Positions 48,647-54,018 of a DNA stretch of 64,000 bases are shown here, piece after piece (the stretch's first letter is position 1; each line of letters starts with the position of its first letter). The notes under the pieces are model-generated. The model searched no databases. It was not told the origin of the DNA and saw nothing but the letters and a program-made list of their open reading frames with translations. A program made the translations under genes and the position numbers. Source of the stretch: Selenobaculum gibii (GTDB taxonomy: Bacteria > Bacillota > Negativicutes > ICN-92133); the NCBI RefSeq assembly GCF_030273445.1, contig NZ_CP120678.1, positions 1 to 64,000 of the forward strand. The letters are read 5' to 3'.

Positions 48647-49502
48647 TTATACGAAAAGCCCGAAAGTACGTGCAAGGAATGTTGTGATTAAGCATAAAAT
48701 TAAGCCAAGGATTGTTGGAAGAAGAAAAGCAATTGCCGTCCATTTTTTACTGCCAGTTTCTTTGTGAATTGTTAACAATGTTGTGCTGCATGGATAATGC
48801 AGTAGGCAAAGCAGCATTGTATTAATTGCAGTCAATAGTGTCCAGTGATTATTAAGAAATACTTCTTTTAATGTGGCAAGGTTCTCAATCTCAACCATTT
48901 GCCCTGTAGAAAGGTAGGCCATTAACATGATTGGAACAACGATTTCATTTGCCGGCAAGCCGAGAATAAAAGCGAGGAGGATTACGCCATCTACACCAAG
49001 ATAATAAGCTGGAGCATCTAGGAGGTGGGTAAGATAACTTAACAGAGTTGTGTCACCGAGAGGAATATTGGCAACAAGCCAAATCACTGCACCGGCTGGA
49101 GCAGCCATATAAATTGCACGCTTTAACACGAAAAATGTACGATCAATGATAGAACGGTAAATAACAGCACCTACTTGTGGCAGACGATAGGGTGGTAGCT
49201 CAAGAATATTAGAAGAGGGGGTTCCTTTGAGTAAAGTTTTGGATAAAAACCATGCCGTGAAAAAAGTCGTAGCGATGCCTAATAAGACGATAGACGTAAT
49301 GCTCAATGTTGTAACTAAAGAATTATAATTTTCGACAAAACAAGAAGAAACAAATAAAGTTGAGAGTAAAATCAACGTTGGAAATCTACCATTGCATGGT
49401 GCAAAATTATTGGTTAATATTGCAATTAATCGTTCACGTGGTGAGTCAATGATGCGACAGGCAATAACGCCAGCGGCATTACAGCCAAACCCCATGCACA
49501 TG
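48647..49502 (-). CDS. feoB: feoB, 3' part (separated from its 5' part by the element)
   Basis: This segment encodes the last 282 residues of FeoB, the ferrous-iron membrane GTPase transporter. From the core it reads MCMGFGCNAAGVIACRIIDSPRERLIAILTNNFAPCNGRFP by segments, the conserved middle of the transport domain. The remaining helices follow, including GLPANEIVVPIML and HYPCSTTLLTIHKETGSKKWTA. The frame can be extended upstream to an ATG at 49534, but the added residues (MQPFSSSGGS) come from element DNA and no ribosome site is present. So it is not an independent gene. Joined at the core to 54018-52940, it restores full-length FeoB. Confidence 0.9.
49494..49502. repeat. Left attachment core (junction of feoB 3' part and element)
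   Basis: ATGCACATG. Host side (left): ...CCAAACCCC, the FeoB MGFGCNAAG codons on the minus strand. Element side (right): CATGAGCCCCCACTGG. The base before (C) and the base after (C) both differ from those of the right core (T and G), so the repeat is exactly 9 bp. Confidence 0.85.
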
Positions 49503-49576
49503 CATGAGCCCCCACTGGATGAAAATGGTTGCATAACAGAAGGTATTTAAACATAACCATACGGTGAGGTGATTGT

Positions 49577-49723
49577 ATGAAGGAGAACACTTTTATTTAC
49601 CAATGGGAAGATTCGGAAGATATTTATATGGTAGAGGTAGTTTATCGAGATGGAAAGTCACTCCTGGATTTATTAGAAAAATTCATTTTGTCGTCATTAG
49701 AAGAGGATGGAGTACTGTTTTAA
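49577..49723 (+). CDS. 48-residue acidic protein coupled to the recombinase (candidate directionality factor)
   Basis: ATG 49577 has GAGGTGAT 5 bases upstream and opens MKENTFIYQWEDSEDIYMVE, continuing with VVYRDGKSLLDLLEKFILSSLEEDGVLF. The TAA at 49721-49723 overlaps the recombinase ATG (TAATG), so the two are translated together. The protein is acidic and looks folded rather than random. No family is recognised. Small proteins encoded next to serine integrases often control excision; that role is inferred from position only. Confidence 0.65.
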   Translation: MKENTFIYQWEDSEDIYMVEVVYRDGKSLLDLLEKFILSSLEEDGVLF

Positions 49724-51357
49724 TGGAAATCCAATATCGGGCAGCGTTATATATGCGGCTATCGAAGGAGGATCAAGTTGCTGGAGAAAGTGGCAGTATT
49801 CTTACGCAACGAAGGATTCTCAATGAGTACGCAAAAGAGAATGGCTTTGTTATCTATCGTGAATATGTAGATGATGGCTGCTCAGGAACAAATTTTGAGC
49901 GAATAGGATTTAAGCAAATGCTTGCAGATATTTCATTAAAAAAAGTAAATTTAGTGATTGTAAAGGATTTATCGCGATTTGGCAGAGATTATATTGGTGC
50001 AGGAGAGTACTTAGAAAAGATATTTCCCTTACAATCGGTGCGAGTGATTGCAATTAATGATGGTTTTGATTCGTTGAAAAAGTTATCTTATCAGATGTTA
50101 GCGATAAAAAATGTATTTAATGAAATGTATGCGCGTGATATTTCTGATAAAATTACGACGGCATTAAAAGCCAAAATGCAATCGGGTGCTTATATTGGAA
50201 ATTTTGCACCCTATGGCTATCAAAAGGATTCTCATAATAAAAATAAACTTGTTGTAAATGAAGAGACTGCACCCATTGTTAAACAAATTTTTCATTGGGC
50301 AACACAGGGGTTAAATCCAAAAAGAATTGCAGAGAAATTAAATAGCAAGCAGATATTAGCACCACTGGCGTATCGGAATTTTTATCATACAAAAAGAAAA
50401 ATAAATGATGAAATCTGTAAGCAGGGCTGGAATGCGGCAACAATTGGAAAAATATTAAAAAATCCTGTCTATCTTGGGCATTTGGTGCAGGGAAAAACCA
50501 GAAAGGTATCGTTTAAATTAAAGCAGCTTGTCCCTGTAGATTGTGCAGAATGGATTATTGTAAAAAATACACATGCAGCGCTTGTTAGTGCAGAAGATTT
50601 TGAGCTCATCATGCAGATGCGGCGCAATCGCACTTGCCATAGACAAGGCAGTTTTTCAAATTTATTTTCAGGTGTTGCATTTTGCAAAGCGTGTGGACGA
50701 AGGATGTCATCAGTAGGTTCGCGGAAAAAAGATTCACCGATAAATTTGGCTTGTGGAGCGTATAAAGCTGGAGGAATAAAAGTTTGCAGTAACCATTTTA
50801 TCGAATATCGTGTACTTTATGATATTGTTTTACAATCATTAAATAAAGAATTGATACTATATGAAATAGAATGGTCATCCTTAGTAAGCCGTATAAAAGA
50901 AAAATGCAGGAAGAAGATAGAAGGTGTTTCCGAAGATAGACAAGTACAGCGATTGCAAAAGCGCAGTAGAGAGCTAGATGCTTTAATTAGTAAATTATAT
51001 GAAGACTATAGTCGAGGTTTTTTAACCGAGGTGCGATTGCGAAAAATGGTTATGCAATATGAAATGAAGTATAGAGACATTCAAGATGTGCTGCAATTAA
51101 GAAATCATGCGGAGAATATTCCTAAAGATGCGGATGCTTCAACAAGGGTAGACGAAAAAATTTTGGAGTATATAAAAAGATGGAAACAGCTGTCGGCGCT
51201 ATCTCCAAGGATGATTGCAAATTTTATTCATTCTATAGAAATTGGTCAGGGCAGTTATGAAATAATAAATGGCAAGCGAAGAAAAGAACAAAAAATTTAT
51301 CTTCAATTTCAATTTGAAAAAAGAACTGAAGCAAACACTTCGTTTGATGCTTTTTAA
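49723..51357 (+). CDS. Large serine recombinase (site-specific integrase/excisionase)
   Basis: 544 residues from ATG 49723. The resolvase catalytic domain (1-150) starts RAALYMRLSKED with the nucleophile Ser14, and shows VIVKDLSRFGRDYIGAGEYLEKIFP. The recombinase domain (about 160-290) has APYGYQKDSHNKNKLVVNEETAPIVKQIF and a zinc-ribbon GVAFCKACGRRM...CGAYKAGGIKVCSNH (about 310-350). A long coiled coil (about 390-470) follows, typical of synapsis control. All parts are intact. A longer frame from 49573 overlaps the small gene and is rejected as the start. It presumably acts on the two ATGCACATG sites. Confidence 0.93.
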   Translation: MEIQYRAALYMRLSKEDQVAGESGSILTQRRILNEYAKENGFVIYREYVDDGCSGTNFERIGFKQMLADISLKKVNLVIVKDLSRFGRDYIGAGEYLEKIFPLQSVRVIAINDGFDSLKKLSYQMLAIKNVFNEMYARDISDKITTALKAKMQSGAYIGNFAPYGYQKDSHNKNKLVVNEETAPIVKQIFHWATQGLNPKRIAEKLNSKQILAPLAYRNFYHTKRKINDEICKQGWNAATIGKILKNPVYLGHLVQGKTRKVSFKLKQLVPVDCAEWIIVKNTHAALVSAEDFELIMQMRRNRTCHRQGSFSNLFSGVAFCKACGRRMSSVGSRKKDSPINLACGAYKAGGIKVCSNHFIEYRVLYDIVLQSLNKELILYEIEWSSLVSRIKEKCRKKIEGVSEDRQVQRLQKRSRELDALISKLYEDYSRGFLTEVRLRKMVMQYEMKYRDIQDVLQLRNHAENIPKDADASTRVDEKILEYIKRWKQLSALSPRMIANFIHSIEIGQGSYEIINGKRRKEQKIYLQFQFEKRTEANTSFDAF

Positions 51358-51463
51358 TAAATGTTTATGAGTTCTGATGTGAATCGATTATGCTATAATG
51401 AGAATAAAGTAGACTTGAACATTGCATGATATAAGAAAATTACAAAATTAAGAGGTGGAGAAG

Positions 51464-51820
51464 ATGAAGTTTATTTGTTATCCTAAATGCACAACTTGTA
51501 AAAGGGCAGAAGATTATTTAAAAGGGCAGGGGATTTCGTTTACGAAGCGTGATATTAAGGAAGAGAACCCGAACTTTGCTGAACTGGAAGCATGGTATAA
51601 AGTAAGTGGACTACCGCTAAAACGTTTTTTTAATACGAGTGGATTGAAATATAAAGAATTATCGCTTAAGGATAAATTGCCGCATATGACAGAAATCGAG
51701 CAGCTCAAACTGCTGGCGACAGATGGAATGCTTGTAAAACGACCAATTTTAGTGAGCGATAAATTTGTCCTTGTGGGATTTAAAGAAAAAGAGTGGGAAG
51801 AAAAACTAGACCAGAAATAA
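51464..51820 (+). CDS. ArsC/Spx-family thioredoxin-like protein
   Basis: 118 residues. The redox site YPKCTTCKRAEDYL (CxxC, residues about 5-18) and KRPILVSDKFVLVGFKEKEWEEKL near the end are typical of the ArsC/YffB/Spx group. RDIKEENP and LPLKRFFNTSG also fit. It could be a reductase or a redox-responsive regulator; Spx itself has a CxxC, but the C-terminal RPI region is shared by all. ATG 51464 has AGAGGTGGAG upstream, and TATAAT at 51395-51400 suggests its own promoter. It is cargo of the element. Confidence 0.85.
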   Translation: MKFICYPKCTTCKRAEDYLKGQGISFTKRDIKEENPNFAELEAWYKVSGLPLKRFFNTSGLKYKELSLKDKLPHMTEIEQLKLLATDGMLVKRPILVSDKFVLVGFKEKEWEEKLDQK

Positions 51821-51938
51821 GTAAATTAGGCTTAAGAATCGAATAAGAGTAGAAGGGGCGATAATCGGAGAATTAAATTCAAAAAAATTCTGTAAAAATA
51901 TTTAAATTATTAGAGCATTATACTAGTTTTTAAATAAA

Positions 51939-51982
51939 TAAAACCGGAGTATATCGAGGGGGGATATACTCCGGTTTTTCAA
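51939..51982. terminator. Bidirectional terminator between arsC-like and hsp20
   Basis: 16-bp stem AAAACCGGAGTATATC (51940-51955) with GATATACTCCGGTTTT (51963-51978), with A/T runs on both sides. Confidence 0.92.
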
Positions 51983-52432
51983 TCAGTCAATCTGAATAGA
52001 TTGATATGGTTTTTGTGTATCCTTTTGTTTTGGTAACTGTACATGTAAAATGCCATCTTGGAATGTTGCTTGAATTTTATCCCTATCGATGTTATCAATG
52101 TAGAAGCTTCTTTGGACTTTGCCAACATGGCGTTCGCGGTAAATGTAATTATTTTCTTTTGTTTCGTTTTCTTCATTGCGATTTGCACTGATTGTCAAGT
52201 AATTTTGGTTATAATCTAACGTAATTTCCTCTTTTTTTACGCCTGGTAATTCAGCAGTTAATTCATAGGTGGCACCCATATCTTTGACATCAACTTTAAA
52301 ACTGCTAAAAGATGAGTTAAAGTTATGCATTAGTCCAAACGGCTGTTCAAACATTTTAGTGAATAAACGGTCGAAAGCATCTCCTCTTTTAGCAATATTA
52401 CCAGAACCATGGAACGGTACTAAATCAAACAT
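51983..52432 (-). CDS. Small heat-shock protein (Hsp20 / alpha-crystallin)
   Basis: This 149-residue ATP-independent holdase has the alpha-crystallin domain from about 45 to 140: FKVDVKDMGATYELTAELPGVKKEEITLDY, IYRERHVGKVQRSFYID (the RSF motif) and GILHVQLPK (the I-x-V-like strand). The N-terminus is MFDLVPFHGSGNIAKRGDAFDRLF. GGGAGTGAG precedes ATG 52432. It is inside the feoB element and has a structured 5' leader. Confidence 0.95.
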   Translation of the reverse strand: MFDLVPFHGSGNIAKRGDAFDRLFTKMFEQPFGLMHNFNSSFSSFKVDVKDMGATYELTAELPGVKKEEITLDYNQNYLTISANRNEENETKENNYIYRERHVGKVQRSFYIDNIDRDKIQATFQDGILHVQLPKQKDTQKPYQSIQID

Positions 52433-52462
52433 ACTCTCACTCCCATTATTTAATTATTTTTT

Positions 52463-52508
52463 AAGAAAGTGTATAGATGCTCTTGCATCGATCTTTATAC
52501 GCTTTCTT
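52463..52508 (-). promoter_or_regulatory. Hairpin at the start of the hsp20 mRNA
   Basis: AAGAAAG-TGTATA-GATGC (52463-52480) pairs with GCATC-GATCTT-TATAC-GCTTTCTT (52484-52508) with small internal loops. It covers nearly the first 45 nt of the message predicted from the promoter at 52517-52544. It could stabilise the RNA, act as a thermosensor, or as DNA bind a repressor. Confidence 0.5.
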
Positions 52509-52516
52509 TAATTCTT

Positions 52517-52544
52517 ATTATATGCATAAAAGTCAAAAAGTCAA
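52517..52544 (-). promoter_or_regulatory. hsp20 promoter
   Basis: Minus strand TTGACT (52544-52539), 16 bases, TATAAT (52522-52517). Three TTGAC words in a row (TTTGACCTATTGACTTTTTGACTT on the minus strand, with 8-9 base spacing) overlap the -35 and might be a regulator site. Confidence 0.7.
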
Positions 52545-52607
52545 TAGGTCAAAAGAACAAAATCATAAAATAATTATTAGAATTATTAGAAAATTCCAAT
52601 AATATGA

Positions 52608-52636
52608 TTGAATTTGTCGTTTATTTATGATAAAAT
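52608..52636 (+). promoter_or_regulatory. Promoter of the short transcript next to the right core
   Basis: TTGAAT (52608-52613), 17 bases, TAAAAT (52631-52636). It is divergent from the hsp20 promoter. The transcript would start near 52643 and end at the terminator at 52911. Confidence 0.6.
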
Positions 52637-52670
52637 ATAGACAAATAAAAGATACAGCAATCAAAGAAAG

Positions 52671-52830
52671 AGTTGATTCCAATGTACAAGATAGTGAAGC
52701 AACAGAGAATTTGAGAAGTAAAGGGATGAGTCCAATGTATCAGGTAGTTCAAGTAACATAAGCTTAAGTAGAAGGGAAATGAGTCCAATGTAGAATGCAA
52801 GCAACAGAAGAAGAAAATAGATACATAGGA
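52671..52830 (+). repeat. Three degenerate tandem 53-bp repeats
   Basis: The word TCCAATGTA recurs at 52678, 52731 and 52784, with an exact period of 53 bases. Flanking parts such as AAGCAACA/AAGTAACA and AAGGGA are also repeated. Each copy carries a purine-rich ribosome-site-like stretch followed by ATG, opening MYKIVKQQRI, MYQVVQVT and a start-stop respectively. This may be a triplicated leader or the remains of a small gene. Confidence 0.6.
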
Positions 52831-52838
52831 GGGGTTAG

Positions 52839-52911
52839 ATGGATTTAGATGAGATTAGTTTAAAATAAGACAGTCTATTATTGAAAGAATAATAGACTGT
52901 CTTATTTTTTG
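52839..52911 (+). other. Nine-residue ORF with perfect ribosome site, then terminator
   Basis: TAGGAGGGG (52827-52835) lies 3 bases before ATG 52839, which reads MDLDEISLK and stops at 52866-52868. It overlaps a strong terminator (arms 52863-52882 and 52888-52907, then TTTTTT). It ends the short transcript starting near 52643. It may be a truncated gene whose remainder was lost at the element's edge, or a tiny peptide. Confidence 0.45.
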
Positions 52912-52917
52912 TCTTAA

Positions 52918-54018
52918 TTATTGCATACAGAAAATGCTTATGCACATGGTTAGTACCTGTTTGCCAGAAGCATGACATTTCCTGAATGCATTGTCGAGAT
53001 TAAAGGCGACACGTGGCAGATACCCGAGATCTTCGAGGAGAGTGAATAGTGGAAAAAAGATAGCCATTGGTGGGAGCATGACAGAGACAACCCATGCGAG
53101 TGAGCGATACATACCCAAAATTAAAACTCCATGTAGCCAAGCAGGCGCATTCATTGCAATGAATAAATCGGTTAAAGTGTCTTCAAAGCTAAACAATATG
53201 TTGCTGAGTAATTCTGAAGGATAATTTGCACCTTCTATTGTCAACCAGAAAACGCCACAAAGCATAAAAAACATGATAGGGTAGCCAAATAACCTAGAGG
53301 TCAAGATATCATCAAGGCGATATTCCCAATTCTTTTTTTGTTCAATAGGTTTTGTTACGACTTTGCGACATATCATTTCTGCTTTCGCATAAATTTGAGT
53401 GATTTTATCTTCCACATCTGTTGTTGTTTCTATCTGCGCAGGAGGATAGTCAGGTTTCTTGTTCTTAGAAATAGAAAAGATAGCTTCTTTTAATTGATTT
53501 AGTCCGCGTCCGGTGCGAGCAGTCGTCCCGATAACAGGGATGGATAATTCTTTACTTAATTCATCTAGATTTACGGTAATGTTTTTTCTTCTGGCCTCAT
53601 CAAGTAAATTTACACAAAGCACCACATTGGGGGTTATTTCAAGGATTTGCAAGGCTAAATTAAGGTTTCGCTCTAGACAGGAAGCATCGACGACGATAAG
53701 TGTTACATCGGGATTTCCGTGAGAAATAAAATCACGTGTGATTTCTTCTTCACTGCTATGTGCGCTTAATGAGTAGGTGCCAGGCAAATCTACTAAAAGA
53801 AATTCCTGACTTTCATGCGTAAATGTCCCCTGGGCATTATCTACCGTTTTTCCTGGCCAATTTCCAGTGTGTTGGCGAAGCCCGGTTAATGCATTGAATA
53901 TTGTACTTTTTCCTACATTCGGATTTCCAGCGAGTGCAATAACAAATTGATCGGGCGAAGCATCAATTTGGAATTGTTTTTTACGCTGGAGCGTATAATG
54001 TATTCGGGTGTCCTGCAT
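52918..54018 (-). CDS. feoB: feoB, 5' part (N-terminal GTPase and first membrane segments)
   Basis: The frame begins at ATG 54018 (AGGAGGAG upstream) and holds the G domain: GNPNVGKST (G1, about residue 31), the G2/switch region GNWPGKTVDNAQG, DLPGTYSLS (G3), NLLDEARR (G4) and the TTARTGRG (G5-like) segment. A helical region and the first transport helices follow, to FRKCHASGKQVLTMC at residue 359, where the core is met. Beyond the core the frame reads seven element-encoded residues (ISIFCMQ) and stops at 52918. Alone it lacks the second half of the channel and should not transport iron. The split occurs within the most conserved part. Confidence 0.92.
   Translation of the reverse strand: MQDTRIHYTLQRKKQFQIDASPDQFVIALAGNPNVGKSTIFNALTGLRQHTGNWPGKTVDNAQGTFTHESQEFLLVDLPGTYSLSAHSSEEEITRDFISHGNPDVTLIVVDASCLERNLNLALQILEITPNVVLCVNLLDEARRKNITVNLDELSKELSIPVIGTTARTGRGLNQLKEAIFSISKNKKPDYPPAQIETTTDVEDKITQIYAKAEMICRKVVTKPIEQKKNWEYRLDDILTSRLFGYPIMFFMLCGVFWLTIEGANYPSELLSNILFSFEDTLTDLFIAMNAPAWLHGVLILGMYRSLAWVVSVMLPPMAIFFPLFTLLEDLGYLPRVAFNLDNAFRKCHASGKQVLTMCISIFCMQ
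52940..52948. repeat. Right attachment core (junction of element and feoB 5' part)
   Basis: ATGCACATG. Element side (left): GCATACAGAAAATGCTT. Host side (right): GTTAGTACCTGTTTGCC, the FeoB GKQVLT codons on the minus strand. Confidence 0.85.

Follow-up and report, generated by a model that had tools for sequence, protein, structure and literature searches.

Known recombination directionality factors (RDFs) of gene-intervening elements are small proteins, namely SprB of SPbeta with 58 aa (PMC4191935), the acidic CD1234 of skinCd with 72 aa (PMC5025042), and GirX of gin with 42 aa (PMC5595907). These three proteins are mutually unrelated in sequence, and excision of SPbeta, skinCd or gin restores the split host gene (PMC4191935, PMC5025042, PMC5595907). 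The structure of the complex between the SPbeta integrase and SprB has been solved (PMC12412911; 9DXD). The RDF genes of SPbeta and skinCd are expressed separately from the integrase genes, which allows the timing of excision. A different picture has been drawn for TnpX and TndX, which reportedly integrate and excise alone, with no RDF needed (PMC5704250). For Tn4453, the genes listed at the two ends of the element are tnpX and tnpW (PMC6822371).

The element analyzed here lies in feoB and resembles SPbeta, skinCd and gin in its basic composition, that is, a split host gene, a large serine recombinase and a small protein (42-72 aa in those systems). None of the three known RDFs has been described as overlapping the recombinase gene, in contrast to the small protein of this element, and on the phage map sprB and the integrase gene are at opposite ends. 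The closest characterized recombinases are TndX (Tn5397), with about 36% identity over 97% of the length, and TnpX (Tn4451), whose catalytic domain ranks first among the PDB matches to the recombinase profile; unlike these two enzymes, the present recombinase targets feoB.

The feoB element and its small upstream gene

Within the window (the whole stretch of 64,000 nucleotides that was analyzed), a 3.4-kb element interrupts feoB (48647-54018), with the two halves of the gene flanking the cores of the attachment site (Table 1). Because the halves outside the cores, rejoined at one core copy, encode an uninterrupted 641-aa FeoB, the element is a 3.4-kb insertion in feoB that consists of the small gene for the protein denoted P0001, a large serine recombinase gene, a gene of the Spx/ArsC family and an Hsp20 gene. 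Two further feoB genes are present in the genome, both uninterrupted, and therefore the loss of this feoB need not be lethal. The recombinase belongs to the TndX/TnpX type, as indicated by the Resolvase, Recombinase and zinc ribbon domains and by the residues that are conserved in its relatives.

Table 1. Features of the element and of the interrupted feoB gene (window coordinates)
Feature	Position	Strand	Evidence
Split feoB, C-terminal half	48647..49502	-	
Left core of attachment site, 9 bp, ATGCACATG	49494..49502	.	
Shine-Dalgarno-like GAGGTGA 5' of the P0001 ATG	49566..49572	+	sequence
Small ORF P0001, 48 aa, acidic	49577..49723	+	sequence, profile, codon usage, AlphaFold2 model
TndX/TnpX-type large serine recombinase, 544 aa	49723..51357	+	Resolvase, Recombinase, Zn_ribbon_recom, weak DUF4368
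Cargo: Spx/ArsC-family protein	51464..51820	+	
Cargo: Hsp20/Hsp18-type small heat-shock protein	51983..52432	-	
Perfect 21-bp inverted repeat followed by a T-run, terminator-like, right end of element	52862..52908	.	
Right core of attachment site, 9 bp, ATGCACATG	52940..52948	.	
Split feoB, N-terminal half	52949..54018	-	

Two minor features were noticed near the ends of the element. Imperfect repeat copies with a 53-bp spacing are located close to the right end (52667-52792). The sequences TTGCATAACAGAA (49529-49541) and TTGCATACAGAA (52921-52932) would flank the core of the circular form, one on each side and no more than about 30 bp away, and are putative binding arms of attP.

An earlier note on this DNA had pointed out a 48-codon ORF with a ribosome site that begins 75 bp inside the left core, shares its stop with the recombinase start and is easily missed, and the sequence bears out each of these points. 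The P0001 gene begins with the ATG at 49577, with GAGGTGA ahead of it, and ends with TAA (49721-49723), the last base of which is the first base of the recombinase ATG (49723-49725), forming a TAATG junction with a 1-base overlap. In a mechanically compiled ORF list, the recombinase frame is prolonged to the TTG at 49573, yielding a 594-aa frame that masks both P0001 and the true recombinase start. The P0001 protein has a net charge of -8 and a computed pI of 3.7. A sigma-70 promoter scan 5' of P0001 found none, and the P0001 and recombinase genes comprise one apparent transcription unit.

The longer recombinase frame is open and no close homologue of P0001 was retrieved from either 380 genomes or viral contigs, as would be the case if P0001 were a chance, non-coding ORF and the recombinase truly began at TTG 49573, but several lines of evidence make this very improbable. 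Under a codon-usage model trained only on the long genes of the window, the P0001 frame has a log-odds score of +3.9, compared to -0.9 for the recombinase extension; of the open non-coding stretches of 144 nt in the window, only 2.8% score at least as high as P0001, and among true coding stretches the P0001 frame is in the 21st percentile and the rival frame in the 3.8th. The conserved recombinase residues start at residue 9-10 counted from the ATG at 49723, as in the relatives, so that the N-terminal extension is unneeded. In addition, the extension frame obtains no score against the small-protein family profile described below, which P0001 matches better than its own shuffled versions.

A family of small proteins encoded upstream of TndX/TnpX-type recombinases

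Searched as a single sequence, P0001 retrieved nothing convincing from 380 genomes of the same class (best E 0.02) or from viral contigs, and Pfam, NCBIfam and PHROGs contain no family for it. The TnpW model (PF14202) was not matched at E up to 1, nor was the DUF6870 model (PF21757), with P0001 falling short of the curated Pfam cut-off in both cases. No solved structure in the PDB matches P0001 by profile or by fold, and in a BFVD fold search the third match, 'Transposon-encoded protein', was not significant (E = 1.0).

Recombinases with about 28-44% identity were collected from 300 genomes of the same class, 398 of the same phylum and IMG/VR. The DNA 5' of these genes contains a recurrent small ORF on the same strand, whose product has an amphipathic helix at its C terminus, preceded by strand-like stretches. 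Some of these proteins match Pfam TnpW (4 of 50), some match DUF6870 (12 of 50) and most are unnamed; public records label them as TnpW family or as hypothetical, or give no annotation.

A first profile was built from 62 upstream proteins that were chosen by eye with P0001 in mind, P0001 itself being excluded. Against this profile P0001 scores 13.9 bits, compared to at most 6.9 bits for the other ORFs of the window, and none of 20,000 shuffled P0001 sequences reaches its score. The procedure was repeated free of this bias, with four Pfam-labelled seeds and automatic recruitment from 6,358 ORFs of 136 loci. At convergence, 84 of the 95 matches were located directly upstream of a recombinase; P0001 was not matched in the first iteration (seeds only), but in all later ones its score exceeded those of all 20,000 shuffled versions. 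In a stricter rerun without members of the feoB clade, a single shuffle out of 10,000 reached the P0001 score. The profile scores of P0001 are modest (9-14 bits).

Clustering of the recombinases at 70% identity resulted in 102 non-redundant clusters, in 77 of which a small same-strand ORF directly upstream matches one joint profile; among the remainder, several have a similar ORF, recognizable by eye and missed by the profile. Conversely, when the search started from the small proteins, 12 of the 17 profile matches in 300 genomes adjoined such a recombinase (that of the window included), whereas one of the other five contains internal stops and the rest are weak. The joint profile unites Pfam TnpW, DUF6870 and unnamed families, and P0001, which is encoded on the same strand as its recombinase and outscores its shuffles, is by this profile a member of this very divergent group. 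Both TnpW (in several loci) and DUF6870 proteins are encoded directly upstream of TndX-like or related recombinases.

The earlier note had considered that the peptide might lack conservation next to homologous recombinases or show substitution ratios typical of non-coding sequence. Neither is the case: a small ORF of the family recurs in the clusters counted above, and close pairs within the family mostly have dN/dS values of 0.01-0.37, indicative of purifying selection, as measured on relatives because P0001 itself has no close homologue. The divergence of the small proteins follows that of the recombinases (Mantel r 0.63, 0 of 2000 permutations), a correlation that would also follow from plain co-inheritance. 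Taken with the upstream position in so many independent clusters, this co-divergence supports the proposal of the same note that the small protein is a partner of the recombinase. P0001 is a genuine, conserved recombinase partner. The pI values across the family span 3.8 to 11.2, and because of this range, protein contact is favored over general DNA binding.

TndX is similar to the present recombinase also in having an upstream ORF of the family. This 46-aa ORF is found ahead of tndX in enterococcal plasmids (L064, 2734-2871), with a score of 38 bits against the first profile, in the training set of which it was included, and 33 bits against an independent profile. None of the five plasmid records in which it occurs annotates it, although the plasmid gene table consulted is known to be incomplete. 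Homology of the P0001 family to SprB was also considered and rejected, given that SprB scored no better on the family profile than many of its own shuffles and the hhalign probability was 0.1%; no sequence or fold link between the two was detected.

Recombinases that target the same site in feoB

The three closest recombinases are inserted at the same point of feoB: L065 with 44%, L145 with 39% and L066 with 36-38% identity. Their feoB junctions read CCATGTGCATGGG or differ by one base, and they represent a clade that targets the feoB motif TMCMGFG (L065, L145/L274 and L066/L177), found in another genome and in viral contigs. Each of the three has a small upstream ORF of its own, with a profile match that is clear for L065 (none of 10,000 shuffles reaches the score), moderate for L145 (35 of 10,000) and weak for L066 (288 of 10,000). 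The recombinase end that faces the C-terminal half of feoB is the 3' end in these three elements and the 5' end in the window. The module is thus flipped relative to the att site, yet the small ORF is always 5' of the recombinase gene, and because this holds in either orientation, the two genes behave as one module. The stretch beside L145 (L274) contains restriction-modification-like genes.

Predicted fold

AlphaFold2, supplied with the family alignment, models P0001 as a strand (residues 2-9), a second strand (16-23) and a helix (29-43), with a mean pLDDT of 82.9. A DUF6870 member modelled from its own alignment has an extra N-terminal helix followed by strand, strand and helix (mean pLDDT 83.7). 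The pTM values are low (0.39 and 0.53, respectively), as is usual for proteins so small. The predicted fold of P0001, a beta-hairpin with one helix, thus resembles the core predicted for DUF6870, which differs by about 35 additional N-terminal residues that include the extra helix. The suggestion in the earlier note that P0001 is a genuine folded protein is consistent with the model (mean pLDDT 83) as well as with codon usage, the family profile and purifying selection within the family.

No DNA-binding fold is evident in either model, which bears on the reading of P0001 as a leader or regulatory gene, with its translation coupled to recombinase expression or its product autoregulating that expression. 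Such a role would fit the TAATG overlap in the window and the placement of family members upstream of the recombinase. However, translational coupling, which had been taken for a key feature of the locus, does not generalize: the small ORFs of the relatives stop at a median distance of 127 nt from the conserved recombinase N-terminus, and the gap usually exceeds 100 nt. Because the gap is long while purifying selection acts on the amino acid sequences of the family, which a mere leader would not require, we consider this role improbable.

Possible functions of P0001

The evidence favors P0001 as a protein that cooperates with its recombinase and probably acts on it. Like the RDFs of other elements, it is a small protein encoded on the integrase's own element; its gene is flanked by the left core and the recombinase gene. 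Our best mechanistic guess, to which we give slightly less than even weight, is that it sets the direction of recombination. Direction control would be the most economical role because dissimilar small integrase-binding proteins exert it for SPbeta, skinCd and gin. In the scheme that we infer as the most likely with respect to binding, contact site and effect on direction, P0001, the dedicated partner of the adjoining TndX/TnpX-type serine recombinase, would bind this enzyme and bias or license attL x attR excision, which in this case would restore feoB. The contact would probably be with the C-terminal zinc/coiled-coil part of the enzyme, as it is for known RDFs. A comparison of the small protein with recombinase segments for charge complementarity produced nothing convincing (1 of 9 segments at p = 0.03).

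The main objection to an RDF role is the report that TnpX and TndX need no helper (PMC5704250). The apparent transcription unit shared by the P0001 and recombinase genes also counts against it, unlike the arrangement in SPbeta and skinCd. The main rival explanation is that P0001 governs the activity of the recombinase in both reactions, as an inhibitor, stabilizer or assembly helper, instead of switching direction. Such a protein would fit the reported self-sufficiency of TnpX and TndX as well as the constant co-expression expected of adjacent genes, and its conservation, co-divergence and genomic linkage would be no different from those of an RDF. The size and fold of P0001 are equally those of RDFs. 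We regard this explanation as less likely than direction control but more likely than a leader role.

Parts of the family already have separate names, TnpW and DUF6870, to which no function is attached. In a survey of mostly open-access literature, without bioRxiv, we found no published function for TnpW and no paper that joins TnpW with DUF6870 or proposes a cofactor role for them or for other small proteins encoded upstream of such recombinases. Somewhat more tentatively than the direction-setting role of P0001 itself, we propose that TnpW, DUF6870, P0001 and the unnamed upstream proteins could form one superfamily of dedicated direction or activity cofactors serving the whole TndX/TnpX branch of large serine recombinases. 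In that case, the superfamily would have been overlooked because the genes are tiny and often unannotated and because TnpX and TndX were thought to act alone.

A partner protein bears on how such elements excise, and its linkage to most of the related recombinases provides a ready list of gene pairs for testing and would add many combinations of recombinase and cofactor for genome engineering. The locus is also a warning that ORF calling can miss a small gene and assign a false N-terminus to the recombinase.

The same genome encodes another, different large serine recombinase (L004, G000:C1:306596-307867), which is preceded, 49 nt upstream, by a 49-aa ORF (MKKVKIQFENCNSSSEIEKFLPLILAEALMMKIKCDLEQSKSKPEEMMG) of similar layout. 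The upstream-partner arrangement may extend beyond the TndX branch.
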